From Bacillaceae bacterium (lineage in GTDB: Bacteria; Bacillota; Bacilli; JACDOE01), in assembly GCA_017656255.1 (NCBI GenBank), contig JACDOE010000006.1, positions 1-64,000 of the forward strand: DNA of 64,000 nt. The letters run 5' to 3'. The notes beneath the pieces were generated by a model. The model had not been told where the DNA came from. It saw only the letters and a program-made list of their open reading frames with translations, and ran no database searches. The translations under genes were made by a program, and so were the position numbers. Every line of letters starts with the position of its first letter. Position 1 is the first letter of the stretch. Of this stretch, positions 21,878 to 46,309 are shown piece by piece.

Positions 21878-23398
21878 ATGCGTTTGGCAGAGATTTTGCC
21901 TCAAATGACTAAACTTTTTTTATCAAAAACAGTTGACAGTTTTGTTAAAGATGTCAAATTCAGTGATGAAGAAGAAATGCGTGAGATGATTCTTAAAAAC
22001 ATTGAAGAATTCAAAAATGAAGACAGATTAAAAAGCAGATTGAATTTTTTAGAAACTGACAGGGATATTGCATTACTTAATGAAATTTGCCTGTTGTGTC
22101 TTTTGGATCAGGAAGGTTATTTGTTAAAAGAATCAGAGTTGTTTTCTAAAGTCGAACAGTATGAAAAAGATATTGTAAAAAACAGCCAGGATAGTGATTT
22201 TGTAGAACAATCTATTCCTGAGTCCTCACAAAGAATTTACACAGCAGTTTTAAAAGCAGCATGGAATAGAGATGAAGATTTAAACCCACATGAAGTACAC
22301 ATTCTGAATGTTTTAAGACAAGAATTAAATTTATCCAAAAGGGATCATTACTTACTGGAAAGTATCATTGGACGTTTTCCGCAGAAAGGCAATAAACTAC
22401 ACAGTCACAAACAAATTGACAGATCTTTAAAAGATCTGCAATCAAGAGGCTTAGTTTTACGCTTTAAAACAGATGACGTTTATTATGTCATTCCTGAAGA
22501 GATCTCAAGGACGATTCGATATTCACTTGGTGGAGAATTAAGAAACGACGCTTACCAAAAAATGCTTTCAGAATTTAATGTTGTGGATCTGAAAAAAGTT
22601 CTGAATGAATTTGAACTAATCACTACTGGTACTAAGAGTGAACTGATTGAACGGATTACAAAACATAATATTCTCCCTTCTTCTTTTCTTTATGTTTTTA
22701 GTTCTTCCGAATTAACAGGTTTTCTAAGGAATCTTGAGGGAGTGAAGATTAGTGGAACGAAAGAAGAAAAAATCCAGAACATTATCGACTATTATGAAGA
22801 GTTGATGATCGCAACGCCATCAGATCCTACAGATGAGCGAGCCAAATACTATGACTTCTTTGAGGAATTAGCTTCAAGACAATACAAAAAACTGCGTGCA
22901 AACAAAATTATTCAAAAAGATATAGACGTTGAACGATATTTTGAACTCGCAACACAATATATTTTTGAGAAAAAATTAGGGCTAGAGTTACAGATCATGA
23001 AGGGTTCCAGGCATGCTGACGGTAAAATCAATTGTGGTTCGAATGAAGTCGTTTTGTGGGATAACAAGAGTACAGAGGAACCCTATCAATTTCCACAAGA
23101 GCATTTCGATCAATTTTTAGGTTATATCCGTAGTGAAGCAAAGAGAGTCACGACATTTTTAGTTATTGCATCAGAATTTACAAACGAAGCCGAAAATCAG
23201 GCGCAAAAATTAAAAGCATTTTCAGGTGAAGATACAGATGTTTCGTTAATTTCGGCAAAGGATCTCAAGTTTTTGGCTGAGGAATGGAAGAACTACTCAG
23301 GCCAAAAAAAGCCGGTGTTTAATATGAATATACTTGATTATACAGGTGTTTTAACGAAGCAGTTGTTAAAGGATAGAATGTCATGGATTCTTAAATAG
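21878..23398 (+). CDS. Orphan SAP-domain protein with FokI-like PD-(D/E)XK nuclease domain
   Basis: A 506-residue protein with clearly AT-richer codon use than its neighbours. Order of parts: an acidic helical N-terminus (1-110), a TerB-like helical segment containing WNRDEDLNPHEVHILNVLRQ (about 118-165), a winged-helix stretch (165-206), two SAP-like helix-turn-helix repeats (about 236-262 and 277-305), and a C-terminal nuclease domain (350-470). The nuclease has GSRHADGKI with Asp381 and LWDNKS with Asp395 and Lys397, then an FDQFLGYI helix. This is the same layout as the FokI cleavage domain (GSR.PDG...D.K). No methyltransferase gene is adjacent. It is likely a DNA-binding nuclease for defence or repair, probably acquired horizontally. 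ATG after GGAGGGA. Confidence 0.7.
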   Translation: MRLAEILPQMTKLFLSKTVDSFVKDVKFSDEEEMREMILKNIEEFKNEDRLKSRLNFLETDRDIALLNEICLLCLLDQEGYLLKESELFSKVEQYEKDIVKNSQDSDFVEQSIPESSQRIYTAVLKAAWNRDEDLNPHEVHILNVLRQELNLSKRDHYLLESIIGRFPQKGNKLHSHKQIDRSLKDLQSRGLVLRFKTDDVYYVIPEEISRTIRYSLGGELRNDAYQKMLSEFNVVDLKKVLNEFELITTGTKSELIERITKHNILPSSFLYVFSSSELTGFLRNLEGVKISGTKEEKIQNIIDYYEELMIATPSDPTDERAKYYDFFEELASRQYKKLRANKIIQKDIDVERYFELATQYIFEKKLGLELQIMKGSRHADGKINCGSNEVVLWDNKSTEEPYQFPQEHFDQFLGYIRSEAKRVTTFLVIASEFTNEAENQAQKLKAFSGEDTDVSLISAKDLKFLAEEWKNYSGQKKPVFNMNILDYTGVLTKQLLKDRMSWILK

Positions 23399-39901: not shown

Positions 39902-39994
39902 GGCTGTCTGTGCAAATATTTGACCTGTACAATGGATTGGTGCAGGGATTATACTATAGTTACAACATCATATCTGGTAGCTGAAGGAATGACC

Positions 39995-40043
39995 AAGGCT
40001 ATTTTCCTGCTGGAGACAGCGGGGAAATAGCCTTTTGTTTTTT
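39995..40043 (+). terminator. Strong hairpin terminator just before the secretion operon
   Basis: AAGGCTATTTTCC pairs with GGGAAATAGCCTT and is followed by TTGTTTTTT. It lies 52 bases before the first gene of the type IV secretion-like operon. A TATACT box sits 40 bases upstream of it (39950-39955). It may end the SDR transcript or act as an attenuator for the operon. Confidence 0.75.
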
Positions 40044-40094: not shown

Positions 40095-40457
40095 ATGAAA
40101 TATCGGATATTAATTGGGGTTTCTGTATTGTTGGCATTATGTTTGGTGCTTCCTGTTTCCGGCCTCGCAGCGGGAGAAGATGAGTTGAAAAATGTCCTGG
40201 GGGAGCGAGACATCGATAAAGACAAGATATACGGTGATATCCAGCAGATTATCTACTTTATCTATGGCATCAGCGGGCTGGTGATATTGACATCCGTCAT
40301 TGTATCCTCTGTTCTCCTCTCCACTTCGGGATCCAACCCTCATAAACGGGCGGCGGGATTCGGTGCACTCGGTATGGCCGCTCTAGGAGGTTATGTGCTG
40401 GTGAAAGCATTTGATATCGCCGCATTTTTATCCACTTTTGCCAGTTCCGGCGGTTAG
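40095..40457 (+). CDS. Small secreted two-helix protein, VirB2/TrbC-pilin-like
   Basis: A 120-residue protein with a signal peptide (about 1-26, ending SGLAA), a short charged segment with an acidic/basic helix, then two transmembrane helices (about 49-75 and 88-110) separated by a small cytoplasmic loop (GSNPHKRAAG). This is the architecture of VirB2/TrbC-type conjugative pilins and of equivalent small proteins that open Gram-positive T4SS operons. The residue similarity is too low to be sure. ATG 40095 follows a perfect GGAGGTGA. It is the first gene of a six-gene operon. Confidence 0.55.
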   Translation: MKYRILIGVSVLLALCLVLPVSGLAAGEDELKNVLGERDIDKDKIYGDIQQIIYFIYGISGLVILTSVIVSSVLLSTSGSNPHKRAAGFGALGMAALGGYVLVKAFDIAAFLSTFASSGG

Positions 40458-40470
40458 GAGGAAATTGTGA

Positions 40471-40785
40471 ATGCGTGAGGTAACCGTTCCTGTTGATCTG
40501 GTTTCCGAAATGAAAAATATTATGGGAAAAGTCTCGACCCGTCAACTTTTATATCTGATCGTCGGAGGGATCATCCATTACCATATTGTCTTAAATCTGC
40601 CGACACCTGTTGATGGCCTGTACGGTTATGTGCTGAATGCGCTGATGGATTTCCCGTTCATTTTGATGACATTCGCACCCGCCTTTCTATATCTTGCCCG
40701 ATACGATCTGTATCTGGACAAGTATCTCTGGTTCTGGTGGCAATCCAAAAAACAGACCGGTACCTGGTATTATCACGGTTCATAA
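40471..40785 (+). CDS. PrgI family (VirB3-like) membrane protein
   Basis: A 104-residue protein starting VTVPVDLVSEMKNIMGKVST followed by RQLLYLIVGG, the PrgI family signature, with two transmembrane helices (about 27-48 and 55-75). PrgI/TcpE/VirB3-like proteins recruit the VirB4 ATPase to the membrane channel in Gram-positive conjugation systems. ATG after TAGGAGG, 13 bases after the pilin-like gene. Confidence 0.75.
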   Translation: MREVTVPVDLVSEMKNIMGKVSTRQLLYLIVGGIIHYHIVLNLPTPVDGLYGYVLNALMDFPFILMTFAPAFLYLARYDLYLDKYLWFWWQSKKQTGTWYYHGS

Positions 40786-40814
40786 ATCATTTGTTATTCG
40801 GGGAGGGTTCATCT

Positions 40815-41618
40815 GTGGGGATAGCAGAAGTGGGACTGGCGGTCACGCTGTTCATCATCCTTTTTCTATCATTTGTTACCGGAAAAAGGAGCGGGCTGAC
40901 GGATTTTATTAAGGATCACAGAAGTCAAGGAAAGGAAGAGTCGTCCCCTTTTCCGGATTTCATCGGTATCAGGCAGATTTCCCGGGAAATGATATGGCTG
41001 CCGGATCATACGTATATGGCTGCTTTAAAGTGCGAACCGGTCAATTATGATCTGAAGAACGAAACGGAACAGGAAGCAATTGACATCGCGTTTGACCGCT
41101 GGCTGTCTTCCGTTGAATGGGACATGTGCTGGTACACGCAGTCACGGGCGGTAGACCTGACACAACAGCTGGAGCTTTACAGAGAAAGAATGTCTGGTAT
41201 GAATGAGCCGTCCCGGGAATACGGACAAAATACGATTCGTTATCTGGAGAGCTGGGTTCGATCACAACCGCGTTTTGAGACCATTCGTTACATTCTGTTT
41301 CCCTATCAGATTCCGGGAAAAAAAGTGTCACAACTGAGTGAGGAACAAATGACCGAAAAAGCGTTGGGTGAGTTATCCCGCAGGATTCGGATGACACGCC
41401 TGTCACTGGAACGCTGCCATATCTATTCCCATCCGTGTACGTCTCAGGATCTCAGGGAGATGGTCTATTTCGCTGTCAACCGAAGGCGTGCCGGTCTGGC
41501 CAGACTCGAGGATGTCGACGAGTATGACATGCTGGCACCGTCTGTTACATCTGACGAATCCGGGGCGCAAAATGAGGTGAATGTACATGAGGATTTTCCA
41601 GAAAAAAAGGCGGGATAA
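40815..41618 (+). CDS. Membrane-anchored VirB4 N-domain-like protein
   Basis: A 267-residue protein with one N-terminal transmembrane helix (about 4-22) and a cytoplasmic domain. FIGIRQISREMIWLPD...LKCEPVNYDL and the AFDRWLSSVEWDMCWYTQSR segment resemble the N-terminal (CagE/TrbE/VirB) domain of VirB4 proteins, without any ATPase motif. It may be comparable to TrsD-type proteins that accompany VirB4 in staphylococcal conjugative plasmids. GTG 40815 is chosen because GGGGAGGG lies seven bases upstream. The longer frame from 40737 overlaps the PrgI gene. Its 3' end overlaps the VirB4 gene by 32 bases. Confidence 0.6.
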   Translation: MGIAEVGLAVTLFIILFLSFVTGKRSGLTDFIKDHRSQGKEESSPFPDFIGIRQISREMIWLPDHTYMAALKCEPVNYDLKNETEQEAIDIAFDRWLSSVEWDMCWYTQSRAVDLTQQLELYRERMSGMNEPSREYGQNTIRYLESWVRSQPRFETIRYILFPYQIPGKKVSQLSEEQMTEKALGELSRRIRMTRLSLERCHIYSHPCTSQDLREMVYFAVNRRRAGLARLEDVDEYDMLAPSVTSDESGAQNEVNVHEDFPEKKAG

Positions 41619-43656
41619 TGCCCGTTCCAGCAAACACAGGGTTGCGCAATCGGCACCGGAAACGGTTCTTGATGACAGGACACCCGATGTTCGCCAGTCA
41701 ACACCTTCCATCTGGGATGTCATCGCACCGGATGGTCTGGTTTTTCCCGGGACTCGTCTCTTTCAAAAACCTGCTGATTATGCCAGGTTTCAGGACAGTC
41801 TGGGAGGAGAGCGATTTCTTCGGCCGTTCTATCTGACAAGGGCAGGGTGGCCGAGAAAGCTTTCCACCGGCTGGCTGAGAGAACTCTACAGCTACGGTGA
41901 GATCGATACAATGGTCCATATATCAAAAACACCGAGGCGCGAGGCAGTCCGAAGTCTGCAAAATCTGCTGACTATCCTGCAGACCAACCTGAATGCAGAG
42001 TTGAAACGAGGGAACATCGACCAGATTTCGGATCTGGAAACGCGAATTGAGGATACCCGGATACTGCGGGATGAAATTTCATTTATGCTCAATGATCAGT
42101 ATTTTGTAGCGGTACAGGCAGTTCTCTACAGTGACAGCCAGGAAGAACTGGACCGGCAATCCAAGTTGCTTGAAGACGAGATGGCGGGAAGGCAGATTCA
42201 CCTGCGCAGCGCTTTTTTACGATTGTTGGACGGTTGGAAGAGCGTGTTGCCCCTGGGAATCAATCGAATGAAAGACACCTATCGCAATCTGGATCGCAAG
42301 GCACTGGGAACTTTATTTCCGTTTGCCTCCAGTGAGTTGAGGTTTTGCGGAGGGATTCCGCTGGGAATCAATATGCAGACCGGCAATCAGGTGTTTTATA
42401 ACGCCTTTGCCGAGCACATCAACAATTATAATCTGTCAGTGTTTGGCGTAAGTGGTTCCGGTAAAAGTTTTACCATCAAAGCGCTCACGGCACGAAGTGT
42501 CCTGGATGAAATCCGGTCGGTTTTGCTGGATCCGGAAGGAGAATACAGGGGGATAACGCAACTTCTCGGAGGCATCTACGTTCCGCTGAAAGAAGATACA
42601 AATATCGTCATTAATCCCTGTGCCATGACTGTGGAAGAAGAAGCTCACAAAACACAGGAAGGAAAATGGATCAGGCGAAAGAGGGTTCCGGTTAGAGAGA
42701 AAATCAGTGAGCTGCTCGGTTTCTTTGATGTGTTGATGTCTGGAACCGGAGAAGGGGAAGGGTTGAATACCTTTGAATCAGCGATTCTGGATGACTGTAT
42801 CCAGAAATATTTCCACCGCCTCGGAATCAATGAAAATGCTGAAAGCCTCTATGAAAAACGTTCAGTTAAAAAAGAAGGCACCATTTACTACGACCGGGTA
42901 CGGAAACCGGAACCTGAATTGTCGGGCATCTATGAAACATTGATCAAAGAATACACCCGTGAACAGGGCGGGGAACGTTTTCCGGATCCTCATGCGGAAC
43001 GCCTGATTGCCGGTATCCGCCCTTATTTGAAAGGAAATTCGCGGGGAATTTTTGACGGCCAAACCTTTCTGGGAGAATGGCAGCAGAATGATGAAACGGC
43101 ATTAGATACCGCCCCAATTATCTGTTTTGATATCAGTCAGCTGGAAGAGGGGTTTTTAAGGCCGCTTGCTTTTCATGTCTGCCTGACCTGGACCTGGGAG
43201 TATTTTGTAAAGAAAGAGAAGAAACAGAAGAAACGGGTCGTGGCCGATGAGGCATGGATGCTGGTGGATCACGAACAGACCCTGAAGTTTCTGGAGAAAA
43301 TGTCCCGGCGCTGCCGCAAACGGAATGCTTCCATGACCATTGCCAGCCAGGATTTCCATAAGTTTGCGCGCAATGATCGTGCCCGGGCAGTCCTGCAAAA
43401 TTCTTCTGCCCTTCTTCTTCTCAAACAGAATGCCATGGACATCCCGCTGATAGAGGATACGTTTCAGATGTCACAGGGAGAGATGGAGATCATTCTTTCT
43501 GCCGGTCCCGGAGAAGGTGTGTTTCGTGTCGGAATGGAAACGGTGTGGATGCAGGTGGATGCGTCGAAACATGAAATGGCGTTTCTGGAGAGCAATCCGA
43601 ATATCCTGTCCCGAATGGAAGCACAGACAACGCGGGTAGAGGAGGAGGGCGTGTGA
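41587..43656 (+). CDS. VirB4-family type IV secretion ATPase
   Basis: A 689-residue ATPase. The N-terminal half holds the VirB4 domain (VHISKTPRREAVRSLQNLLT and a long helical LETRIEDTRILRDEISFML region). The C-terminal ATPase has Walker A GVSGSGKS at about 287-294, LDPEGEYRG after it, Walker B VVADEAWML with Asp554-Glu555, and the MSRRCRKRNASMTIASQD segment typical of TraE/TrsE/PrgJ. It powers assembly of, and transport through, a T4SS channel. ATG 41587 follows GAGGTGA at six bases. All motifs are intact. Confidence 0.92.
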   Translation: MRIFQKKRRDNARSSKHRVAQSAPETVLDDRTPDVRQSTPSIWDVIAPDGLVFPGTRLFQKPADYARFQDSLGGERFLRPFYLTRAGWPRKLSTGWLRELYSYGEIDTMVHISKTPRREAVRSLQNLLTILQTNLNAELKRGNIDQISDLETRIEDTRILRDEISFMLNDQYFVAVQAVLYSDSQEELDRQSKLLEDEMAGRQIHLRSAFLRLLDGWKSVLPLGINRMKDTYRNLDRKALGTLFPFASSELRFCGGIPLGINMQTGNQVFYNAFAEHINNYNLSVFGVSGSGKSFTIKALTARSVLDEIRSVLLDPEGEYRGITQLLGGIYVPLKEDTNIVINPCAMTVEEEAHKTQEGKWIRRKRVPVREKISELLGFFDVLMSGTGEGEGLNTFESAILDDCIQKYFHRLGINENAESLYEKRSVKKEGTIYYDRVRKPEPELSGIYETLIKEYTREQGGERFPDPHAERLIAGIRPYLKGNSRGIFDGQTFLGEWQQNDETALDTAPIICFDISQLEEGFLRPLAFHVCLTWTWEYFVKKEKKQKKRVVADEAWMLVDHEQTLKFLEKMSRRCRKRNASMTIASQDFHKFARNDRARAVLQNSSALLLLKQNAMDIPLIEDTFQMSQGEMEIILSAGPGEGVFRVGMETVWMQVDASKHEMAFLESNPNILSRMEAQTTRVEEEGV

Positions 43657-44990
43657 ACAACGAGGAAAACTCATGGTGGGAGATTATCATTGAACGTTTT
43701 CTCTCCAAAATTCTGGAACCGTTTCAGCAACTGAAACCCATCGAAAAACTGGTGTTTGAATCATCACCGGATGCAGTCTGGGGATTGTTTACACTAGAGG
43801 AATATGAACAGGTGATCATCCCCGGACAAAATATTGTTTCGTTTCTTTCCTGGACGGTATTAGTGGTTGCGATTATCCTGGCCGCCCAGAGACTATCACT
43901 TTCCAGGATCAACCCCGGTGCTCGCCAGGACTATTTTCAACTGCTGGGTAACTGGTTGATTGTCACGGTCCTTTTGTACCAGGTGGAGACGATTTTTGAC
44001 ATCCTGTTTATGATTAATCATGCGATTGTGACCCTGTTTTACATCGAATCACCCGGTTCATTCCACGACATATTGTTTGTTAATCCGGAAACGGGAGCGG
44101 AATTGAATATCATCGCACAATTGATCATTCAGCTTGTCATTTTTGGATTATCGATCTGGCTCAACTTTTTTTACATCATGCGCAAATATGTGTTAATCTT
44201 TCTGATCATTCTGGCTCCTTTTTTTATCGTGCTTTTTCTTTTTCCGCAATCACGCGGTGTAACGGGGGCGTGGATGAAAGAAACGGTGAGTAATATTGCG
44301 GCACAAGCAGTGCATGCGATGATGCTGTGGGTTTATCTTTCCATGGGAGATGCCATATCGGCTAATTGGCTGGTCTATATTGTCGTATTGTGCCTGTTTA
44401 TTCCCTTTTCCGAAACACTGCGGATGCTGTTGGGGGCGACTGGAAGTACCGGACAACTGGCAACAGCAGGAACCATGATGGGGGCCGGTTTTCTTTTACA
44501 TATGGGACGGACATTTCAGCAAAGCCGGCAACTGGGGCGAGACATGGTGACCAGTCTCAGAGGGGATGAAGAAAAGCAAACTTCTTCATCTTCTTCAGAA
44601 GCTCGTCCCACACGACATCAACATCGGAACACTCAATCCGAAAAAAGAACGGCTCCCGTCAATCGACAGCGGATGCAAACGGCTTCCCGAATCACAGGAA
44701 GCGTAACAGGATTAACCGCAGGGGCCGCTGGAGCCATTATCGGAGCAGCGGCCATGGGTAGAGAAGGGATCGAGACAGGTGAGACCGTCGGACGTACGTT
44801 TGGTGAACCGGCGGGACAAGCAGTCGGGCGTGCTGCGTATGCTGGAGGGACTGTTGTGTCATCTTACGTGATCCGAAAGAAACAGACACAGCAGGATTCA
44901 CACCCCCAACCCGCATATGATGGTTTATACCGGGAAAAAGTGGCCGAAAGACGTCTGAGAAAGCGGCGAATCCGGAGGAACATCCGATGA
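43653..44990 (+). CDS. VirB6/TrbL-like polytopic membrane protein
   Basis: A 445-residue protein with an N-terminal amphipathic region, then five to seven transmembrane helices between about residues 57 and 275, including FFYIMRKYVLIFLIILAPFF. A hydrophilic linker rich in Ser/Gln/Arg follows, then a Gly/Ala-rich stretch (TGLTAGAAGAIIGAAAMG) and a basic tail. This is the form of VirB6/TrbL inner-membrane channel proteins. The GTG start overlaps the VirB4 stop (GTGTGA), and the end overlaps the next gene's ATG. Confidence 0.72.
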   Translation: MNNEENSWWEIIIERFLSKILEPFQQLKPIEKLVFESSPDAVWGLFTLEEYEQVIIPGQNIVSFLSWTVLVVAIILAAQRLSLSRINPGARQDYFQLLGNWLIVTVLLYQVETIFDILFMINHAIVTLFYIESPGSFHDILFVNPETGAELNIIAQLIIQLVIFGLSIWLNFFYIMRKYVLIFLIILAPFFIVLFLFPQSRGVTGAWMKETVSNIAAQAVHAMMLWVYLSMGDAISANWLVYIVVLCLFIPFSETLRMLLGATGSTGQLATAGTMMGAGFLLHMGRTFQQSRQLGRDMVTSLRGDEEKQTSSSSSEARPTRHQHRNTQSEKRTAPVNRQRMQTASRITGSVTGLTAGAAGAIIGAAAMGREGIETGETVGRTFGEPAGQAVGRAAYAGGTVVSSYVIRKKQTQQDSHPQPAYDGLYREKVAERRLRKRRIRRNIR

Positions 44991-46309
44991 GGTTATCCTC
45001 ACATACAGGCGAGGCCATGACAAAAAAAATATGGAGACGTCTGTCTTCTAAAGCGGGCAGAGTGGTCAACCGGTTATTATTTGTCATCATACGGGCAGCC
45101 ATTAAATTTGTATTAAAAAGACTGTTATGGATCCTTTCCGGGTCTGTCGGTCTTCCCGGTTTGCTCAGTCTGATTTTGATTATATTTATCGGGGGTGCGC
45201 TTATTTTTTTCTCTGTCGGATTTGACTGGGATATGACAGGGGACGGGAAGGAAGATCCGCGAATCAGGGAACAATTCATACAGGCTTCCAAAGAGAGCAT
45301 CGACCGATCCAGGGAAGAACAACTTCCCTATCAGTTGCCGTGGGCCGTAATTGCCGCACTGGAAAGAGTCCGCCTGCTCAAACAGGGTGGAGCTATTCAA
45401 CCCGTTCAAAGAATGGAAGAATTAAAACCGGTATTTGAGTATCAGTCGTATCCATTTGAAAACCATCGATATACAGTCATTACCACTTGTGGTCCGAACG
45501 GCTGTAAAAGCTATCAAACAGCGTTGAAAATCACCCATCCCCGAAGAAGAATGTTAACCAAAGCCTCAACCTGGGAAGGTGTGACAACCATCCATTACAT
45601 CAAAAAATCGGAACAGACCTTTCATAAAACAGGGGAAAGAATCTACCATAACGGGGAATATACCAAAACATTTACCGACTACTTAAAACGAGCCGTTTAC
45701 TGGGAACAGGAAGAAAAAACGTTCATCTCAGATTATTCCAGACTGGATACTGTTTTTGCCGACCACCACTTTCAACCGGATGACCGGGTACTGTTCAGCG
45801 AGATTGCCCGTGCCTTCAACCCTGAACTTAACCTTCCGTTTATCACGGCATACACTGGGATCACACCCTTGATTCCAGGGAGTACTTACACCGGTACCGT
45901 GAATGGCATGTGGGGCTGGCCGGTGCCTGAGAATACGGTGATCACGTCCCAGTTCGGATATCGCCGCATCACTGGAAGAGGGGAAGAATTTCATAAAGGC
46001 ATTGATATAGCCCCGTTAAAAACGGGAGTTAACGGAGACCCGGTTCATGCTGCTGCTGACGGCAGGGTGACTCGTGCAGAATGGTCCCGAGGTGGATACG
46101 GATGGGTCATTTACCTTCGACATGAAGATGGGTTTCAGACACGATATGCCCATCTGAGCCGGATTCTGGTGAGAGAAGAGGGACAGGTAAAAAGAGGGGA
46201 CATGATCGGCCTGATGGGAAACACGGGGGATTCTACCAATACGCATCTACACTTTGAAATCAGAAAAAATGGCCGGCCGCACGACCCCCTCATCTATATA
46301 AGGCCGTAG
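44987..46309 (+). CDS. Membrane-anchored M23 peptidase of the secretion operon
   Basis: A 440-residue protein with one transmembrane helix (about 55-80), an extracellular linker domain (90-300) and a C-terminal LytM/M23 zinc peptidase. Zinc motifs are HKGIDIAP and HLHFEIRKNG, with YAHLSRI between them. It should cut peptidoglycan cross-bridges to let the secretion channel through the wall, the job of VirB1/TrsG/PrgK-type hydrolases. CHAP or SLT domains are more common there, so M23 is a variation. The start overlaps the VirB6-like stop (ATGA). It ends the operon. Confidence 0.82.
   Translation: MRLSSHTGEAMTKKIWRRLSSKAGRVVNRLLFVIIRAAIKFVLKRLLWILSGSVGLPGLLSLILIIFIGGALIFFSVGFDWDMTGDGKEDPRIREQFIQASKESIDRSREEQLPYQLPWAVIAALERVRLLKQGGAIQPVQRMEELKPVFEYQSYPFENHRYTVITTCGPNGCKSYQTALKITHPRRRMLTKASTWEGVTTIHYIKKSEQTFHKTGERIYHNGEYTKTFTDYLKRAVYWEQEEKTFISDYSRLDTVFADHHFQPDDRVLFSEIARAFNPELNLPFITAYTGITPLIPGSTYTGTVNGMWGWPVPENTVITSQFGYRRITGRGEEFHKGIDIAPLKTGVNGDPVHAAADGRVTRAEWSRGGYGWVIYLRHEDGFQTRYAHLSRILVREEGQVKRGDMIGLMGNTGDSTNTHLHFEIRKNGRPHDPLIYIRP

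Follow-up and report, generated by a model that had tools for sequence, protein, structure and literature searches.

A compact set of six genes resembling a type IV secretion system (T4SS) lies in the chromosome of a Bacillaceae bacterium and raises the question of what such a machine does in a genome where VirD4, TcpC and the two relaxase families searched are not detected: whether it is the residue of an old mobile element, a channel used by other elements, a protein exporter, or an apparatus kept by the cell itself. The analysis was centred on a window of 64,000 nucleotides at the beginning of contig C6, which measures 160.5 kb and belongs to a genome of 3.41 Mb that is 98.9% complete.

Gene content and organization of the operon

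The operon occupies positions 40095-46309 on the + strand, and its genes were taken from the open reading frame list of the window. The preliminary description of this DNA had reported six intact same-strand genes with short gaps or overlaps and intact Walker A and B motifs, all of which was borne out. The features of the locus are:

39995..40034, + strand: terminator-like hairpin, 18-bp stem and T run (leader fold z-score -4.9)
40095..40457, + strand: VirB2-type pilin (PF18895 T4SS_pilin, E 9.7e-8, above the curated cut-off)
40471..40785, + strand: PrgI/VirB3-like membrane protein (PF12666, E 1.6e-9)
40815..41618, + strand: VirB4 N-terminal part (TrsD-like), a gene of its own (N-terminal region of VirB4_plasma, weak match)
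41587..43656, + strand: VirB4 ATPase (NF045971, CD1110-family VirB4, E 2.5e-63; PF19044, PF12846; TraG/AAA_10/DUF87)
43653..44990, + strand: VirB6/TrbL-like polytopic membrane protein, 445 aa (TrbL, E 3.7e-4; homology to VirB6 of relatives)
44987..46309, + strand: M23 peptidoglycan hydrolase, membrane-anchored, 440 aa (PF01551, E 7e-33)

The start of the pilin gene at 40095 is backed by a ribosome-binding site. The VirB4 N-terminal part was listed as an open frame from 40737, but GGGGAGGG precedes a GTG codon at 40815, and this ribosome-binding site suggests a start at the latter position; for the VirB4 ATPase, listed from 41581, the ribosome-binding site favours 41587. Gaps between consecutive genes are 13, -49 (about +29 if translation begins at 40815), -38, -4 and -4 nt, the 4-nt overlaps falling at VirB4/VirB6 and VirB6/M23.

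The pilin has a signal peptide and a pair of hydrophobic helices joined by a short basic loop (hydrophobic segments 1-30, 52-81 and 95-113), and its homologs are the first operon gene in plasmid relatives too. PrgI is 28-41% identical to PrgI of plasmid relatives. The VirB4 N-terminal part gave no match in a Pfam search and shares about 30-38% identity with the counterpart gene in close plasmid relatives, and key residues of the VirB4 ATPase (Walker A GVSGSGKS, Walker B ADEAW) are invariant in alignments. VirB6 scored 20.8 bits, below the TrbL Pfam cut-off of 25.9, but is a clear homolog of the VirB6 proteins of relatives (25-30% aligned identity). The metal and active-site residues of the M23 protein (HKGID/HLHFE) are intact and invariant in the alignment, and its predicted model matched M23/LytM structures with Z up to 19.5, including the PrgK LytM structure 8s0u (Z 12.1); these matches (Foldseek, VIA-align) fall mainly on the M23 domain of a protein that also has a middle beta-rich domain (about 149-248). 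The operon contains core parts of an MPF-FATA system, namely VirB4 with Walker A/B, PrgI/VirB3, a VirB6-like protein and a VirB1-like wall hydrolase.

The leader hairpin lies 60 nt upstream of the pilin gene and either terminates the transcript of the preceding SDR gene or attenuates the operon. In the stretch from the hairpin to the pilin gene no promoter was identifiable, and comparison of the leader RNA with Rfam returned no credible family. A weak promoter-like site was seen upstream of the hairpin, at 39926-39955.

Genomic setting and composition

The operon lies in a chromosomal core block. On its left are genes for a glutamate-synthase-like protein and an SDR, and on its right are Hsp20, DUF309, uvrC, lysC and sdhCAB (uvrC, lysC and sdhCAB named by eye from the sequence), so that the flanks are as first described. 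No exact direct repeat of at least 9 nt is shared by the operon flanks, no recombinase was recognised among the window ORFs (by eye and by Pfam on 17 proteins), no tRNA was found beside the operon, and no further plasmid gene was recognised there. The earlier statement that the operon carries no mobility genes therefore stood, with no integrase, flanking repeat or tRNA found adjoining, and a reading of the operon as an ICE with attachment sites was rejected on the same grounds.

The base composition of the operon had been described as that of its surroundings. This held for GC content (48.3% against 47.7% for the window; GC3 0.51 against 0.54) and less well for codon usage, which is somewhat less host-like than that of core genes. 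The pooled codon usage score of the operon is 0.060, compared with a mean of 0.105 (sd 0.033) for 39 core genes, and three of its six genes score lower than all 39. A plasmid relative scored -0.114, and the nearby foreign element is, in most of its genes, also further from the host than the operon is. Since GC matches the surroundings and codon usage falls between core genes and the plasmid relative, the composition suggests a long, perhaps not primordial, residence in the genome.

Elsewhere in the window, a low-GC stretch (0.43) contains a gene at 21878-23398 whose 506-aa product has a SAP domain, weakly matches a FokI-like nuclease and is possibly a foreign nuclease. Repetitive open frames are found at the contig start (1-815; IGGLVGLLDRLSIV.. 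and FIRSGFIGSV.. repeats).

Relatives and VirB4 phylogeny

The best plasmid matches are large Bacillales plasmids that carry all six genes in identical order; Planococcus lenghuensis unnamed1, Virgibacillus halodenitrificans Bac324, Halobacillus pLDW-31 and pBpOF4-01 are examples. Because this order is found again on independent plasmids, a chance arrangement is excluded. Identity to the VirB4 of the operon is 35-43% over nearly full length for these four plasmids and 38-45% for the close relatives, with about 42% as the typical figure for the large Bacillales plasmids. Other Bacillota carry more distant versions of the block (pilin-PrgI-VirB4N-VirB4-VirB6-M23), in some cases on single-contig chromosomes. 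Most of the relatives' pilins tested match PF18895 above the cut-off, and some match VirB2 PF04956. A scan of named genomes returned plasmid-type relatives and one distant match, and nothing else; no close relatives were found on viral contigs. In two loci of other Bacillota (L104, G720:C1; L098, G630:C2) the VirB4 relative has one in-frame stop within the match, which may reflect decay or a match that overruns the gene end.

Apart from being plasmid-borne where the present operon is chromosomal, the Bacillales plasmid operons differ from it in content. VirB6 is 1094-1498 aa long in the close plasmid clade and 445 aa in the operon, which lacks the 650-1050-aa C-terminal extension of this sister clade and keeps the membrane core. 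The wall hydrolase combines SLT and M23 domains in close plasmid relatives and has M23 alone in the operon. A seventh gene of ~210 aa, present in nearly all plasmid relatives, is absent from the operon. The model of its product has one TM helix and an NTF2-like domain (pLDDT 75) and resembles NTF2-like folds with Z up to 7.4; the chains listed are mostly NTF2-like at Z 6-7.4, and no VirB8 entry is among the matches listed. Judged from this model, the seventh gene is probably VirB8-like.

In two VirB4 trees, built from Bacillales plasmid and Bacillota sequences, the operon VirB4 was placed as sister to the whole 13-member plasmid clade (support 100/99), which includes Planococcus lenghuensis unnamed1, Bac324 and pLDW-31. 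Since its VirB4 is sister to the clade and not within it, the operon is not a recent capture of any plasmid in the clade. Derivation from within the plasmid clade by trimming was rejected on the same placement. The end branch of the operon VirB4 measures 0.44, compared with 0.94 for the plasmid stem. Loss is the simpler reading for the seventh gene, because the gene is present also in two outgroup plasmids. Loss and late gain fit equally well where the SLT domain and part of the VirB6 extension are concerned, because SLT varies among the outgroups.

Conjugation partners

Whole-genome profile searches for relaxases, covering the two families PF03432 and PF03389 (MobA/MobL), returned no match, nor did whole-genome searches for VirD4 (PF02534) and TcpC (PF12642). 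When the coupling protein of a plasmid relative was used as a query against the whole genome, a chance-level match alone was obtained (E 0.04). The sensitivity of the PF02534 search can be judged from the relatives: a coupling protein was found in 13 of 14 plasmids or genomes carrying them, down to E 1e-7, and in other Bacillota nine of ten were above the cut-off and the tenth just below. No homolog of the NTF2-like seventh gene was found on contig C6, and genome-wide matches were at chance level, a search that a very divergent VirB8 could escape. No VirB5-like tip protein or cargo was seen, and no neighbour of the operon is effector-like. The absence of a relaxase and coupling protein given in the preliminary description thus extends genome-wide for PF03432, PF03389 and PF02534, and its remark that no cargo is apparent agrees with the present result.

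One close relative, Parageobacillus thermantarcticus M1 (L024), also has a genome without a PF02534 match. It has a full-length VirB6 and an SLT+M23 hydrolase and may be another case free of a coupling protein.

A separate integrated element is present at about 69-117 kb of contig C6 (loci L058-L060), on the right side of the operon and some 23 kb away from it. It encodes a large serine recombinase, an HTH repressor, a UvrD helicase, an Alp7A-like plasmid-segregation actin, Tad-like pilus genes (CpaB-, TadA- and TadB/C-like, named by eye), a VirB4-like ATPase, an M23 peptidase and an FtsK-type ATPase, and is a hybrid of Tad pilus and T4SS parts. The FtsK-family ATPase is possibly a TcpA-like coupling protein. 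Comparable blocks of Tad and PrgI/VirB4/M23 genes seem to be present in four other loci (L067, L074, L111 and L113).

Interpretation of the operon

The operon is best explained, with a probability of roughly 0.5, as a chromosomally resident, reduced monoderm (MPF-FATA-like) T4SS that shares ancestry with Bacillales plasmid conjugation operons and works as a pilus or as an export or uptake machine. This reading starts from what was observed directly (gene content, intact motifs, relatives, the VirB4 tree and absence of the listed partner families), from which we infer expression, pilus formation and use of the machine. Because the genome lacks a VirD4-type pump and the two relaxase families, the operon has possibly been kept as a surface appendage or secretion device. 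An earlier proposal of a domesticated chromosomal apparatus, as opposed to a conjugative element, is upheld as far as chromosomal location and the undetected partner families go, and is qualified by its nearest kin, which are plasmid T4SS operons with a VirD4-like coupling protein (T4CP). That proposal had taken a VirD4 gene near related loci, or attachment-site repeats, as signs of an ICE remnant; on the plasmid relatives a VirD4-like gene does lie 29-67 kb from the T4SS operon, and repeats of this kind were not found at the present operon.

In model systems the VirB2 pilin is recruited by VirB3 and VirB6 and drawn out of the membrane with energy from VirB4; assembly takes place at VirB6, and VirD4 acts as the pump for substrate (PMC12624023). 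By extension, recruitment of the membrane pilin here would fall to PrgI/VirB3 and VirB6 and its extraction to the two-piece VirB4 ATPase, with VirB6 as the platform for pilus growth, and the M23 protein would open the cell wall. Without a VirD4 pump and relaxase the machine would not export its own DNA. It might be used as a surface pilus for attachment or contact, by analogy with the proposal for Bartonella Trw, or as a coupling-protein-independent export or uptake device comparable to Bordetella Ptl or Helicobacter ComB (PMC12857230). A pilus-building machine, put to either of these uses, is the simplest reading, because VirB2, B3, B4, B6 and the wall hydrolase are kept and the pump is absent. 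That the six genes form a dedicated, host-owned VirB2-type pilus machine, which dropped DNA transfer and kept pilus building, is put forward tentatively. The main reading of a resident, reduced machine also has in its favour that catalytic residues are invariant in VirB4 and M23 even though VirB6 is cut to its membrane core, that the VirB4 end branch is short, and that composition and codon usage lie closer to the host than those of the plasmid relative or most of the neighbouring element. Against the main reading stand the codon usage of the operon, which is not fully host-like, the lack of a VirB5-like tip protein or cargo, the lack of a named promoter downstream of the leader hairpin, and a VirB8-like protein, described for all known MPF-FATA conjugative elements (PMC12857230) and not found in the genome of the operon.

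Several of these points would also suit a decaying, functionless remnant: a plasmid or ICE, integrated long ago, from which the relaxase, coupling protein, VirB8-like gene and integration genes have been lost. The relatives of the operon are plasmids with a coupling protein, the seventh gene, SLT domain and VirB6 extension are missing, no promoter of its own was recognised, and codon usage is partly foreign. Against decay stand six complete reading frames that overlap closely and end cleanly, catalytic residues that do not vary, the lack of any further recognised plasmid gene adjoining, and a VirB4 end branch that is short despite deep divergence, and we consider a remnant unlikely. Export of proteins as the proper function, by way of an unrecognised coupling factor and effectors encoded elsewhere, is improbable: relaxase-less chromosomal T4SSs often export proteins (PMC3158045), and the 89K system of Streptococcus suis exports a protease (PMC12857230), but that system has a VirD4, of which none was detected here, and the operon has no effector-like neighbour. 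The least probable account is a conjugation channel working in trans, with relaxase and coupling protein supplied by other elements such as the integrated element on contig C6, whose FtsK-type ATPase would act in a TcpA-like manner. MOB and MPF modules often reassort (PMC3158045), and this element encodes the FtsK/SpoIIIE ATPase along with a VirB4-like ATPase, an M23 protein and Tad-like genes. Its possession of its own VirB4-like and M23 proteins speaks against such a partnership, however, as do the great distance of that VirB4-like protein (branch 4.69), the absence of PF03432 and PF03389 relaxases from the genome, and the VirD4 type of the partner carried by the plasmid relatives.

Comparison with known systems

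Relaxase-less T4SSs were reported in 2011 to make up almost half of chromosomal T4SSs (PMC3158045). The operon, in which a chromosomal VirB4 gene is grouped with other T4SS genes in the absence of a nearby relaxase, belongs to this MOBless chromosomal class (Guglielmini et al. 2011, PMC3158045), from which it is set apart by a genome without a VirD4 match anywhere and by the combination of a VirB2-type pilin and a Gram-positive host. Bartonella Trw, Helicobacter ComB and Bordetella Ptl are likewise VirB-type machines without VirD4 (PMC12857230), a likeness of parts alone; unlike the operon, they are Gram-negative systems with outer-membrane core complexes. As compared by published gene list, the operon also resembles in its parts the chromosomal, MPF-FATA-related T4SSs of Patescibacteria (Southlakia epibionticum and others; PMC12102498, PMC10633639), which have a PF18895 VirB2-type pilin, PrgI, a TrsD-like VirB4 N-terminal part, VirB4, VirB6 and a wall hydrolase, mostly with no relaxase. 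The Southlakia system belongs to another phylum, has several pilins and is essential for growth of the epibiont.

Relaxase-less chromosomal T4SSs and the pilin-bearing T4SS of Patescibacteria are therefore already known, and what is special in the operon is the compact set, the lack of a VirD4 detected genome-wide and a Gram-positive host for the pilin. According to a 2025 review, Gram-positive T4SSs have no VirB2 pilins except in Patescibacteria; the same review names as a long-standing question whether T4SSs of Gram-positive bacteria have turned into machines dedicated to effector translocation (PMC12857230). In the family described here, a PF18895/VirB2-type pilin gene leads T4SS operons on plasmids and chromosomes of Bacillota; the present operon is a small chromosomal member of this family that lacks the VirD4 pump. 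If the dedicated pilus reading is true, a VirB2-type pilus would be present in a group where such pili are considered absent outside Patescibacteria; and the six genes, if expressed, would offer, in a Gram-positive bacterium with a normal-sized genome, a far easier test system for pilus function than an epibiont.
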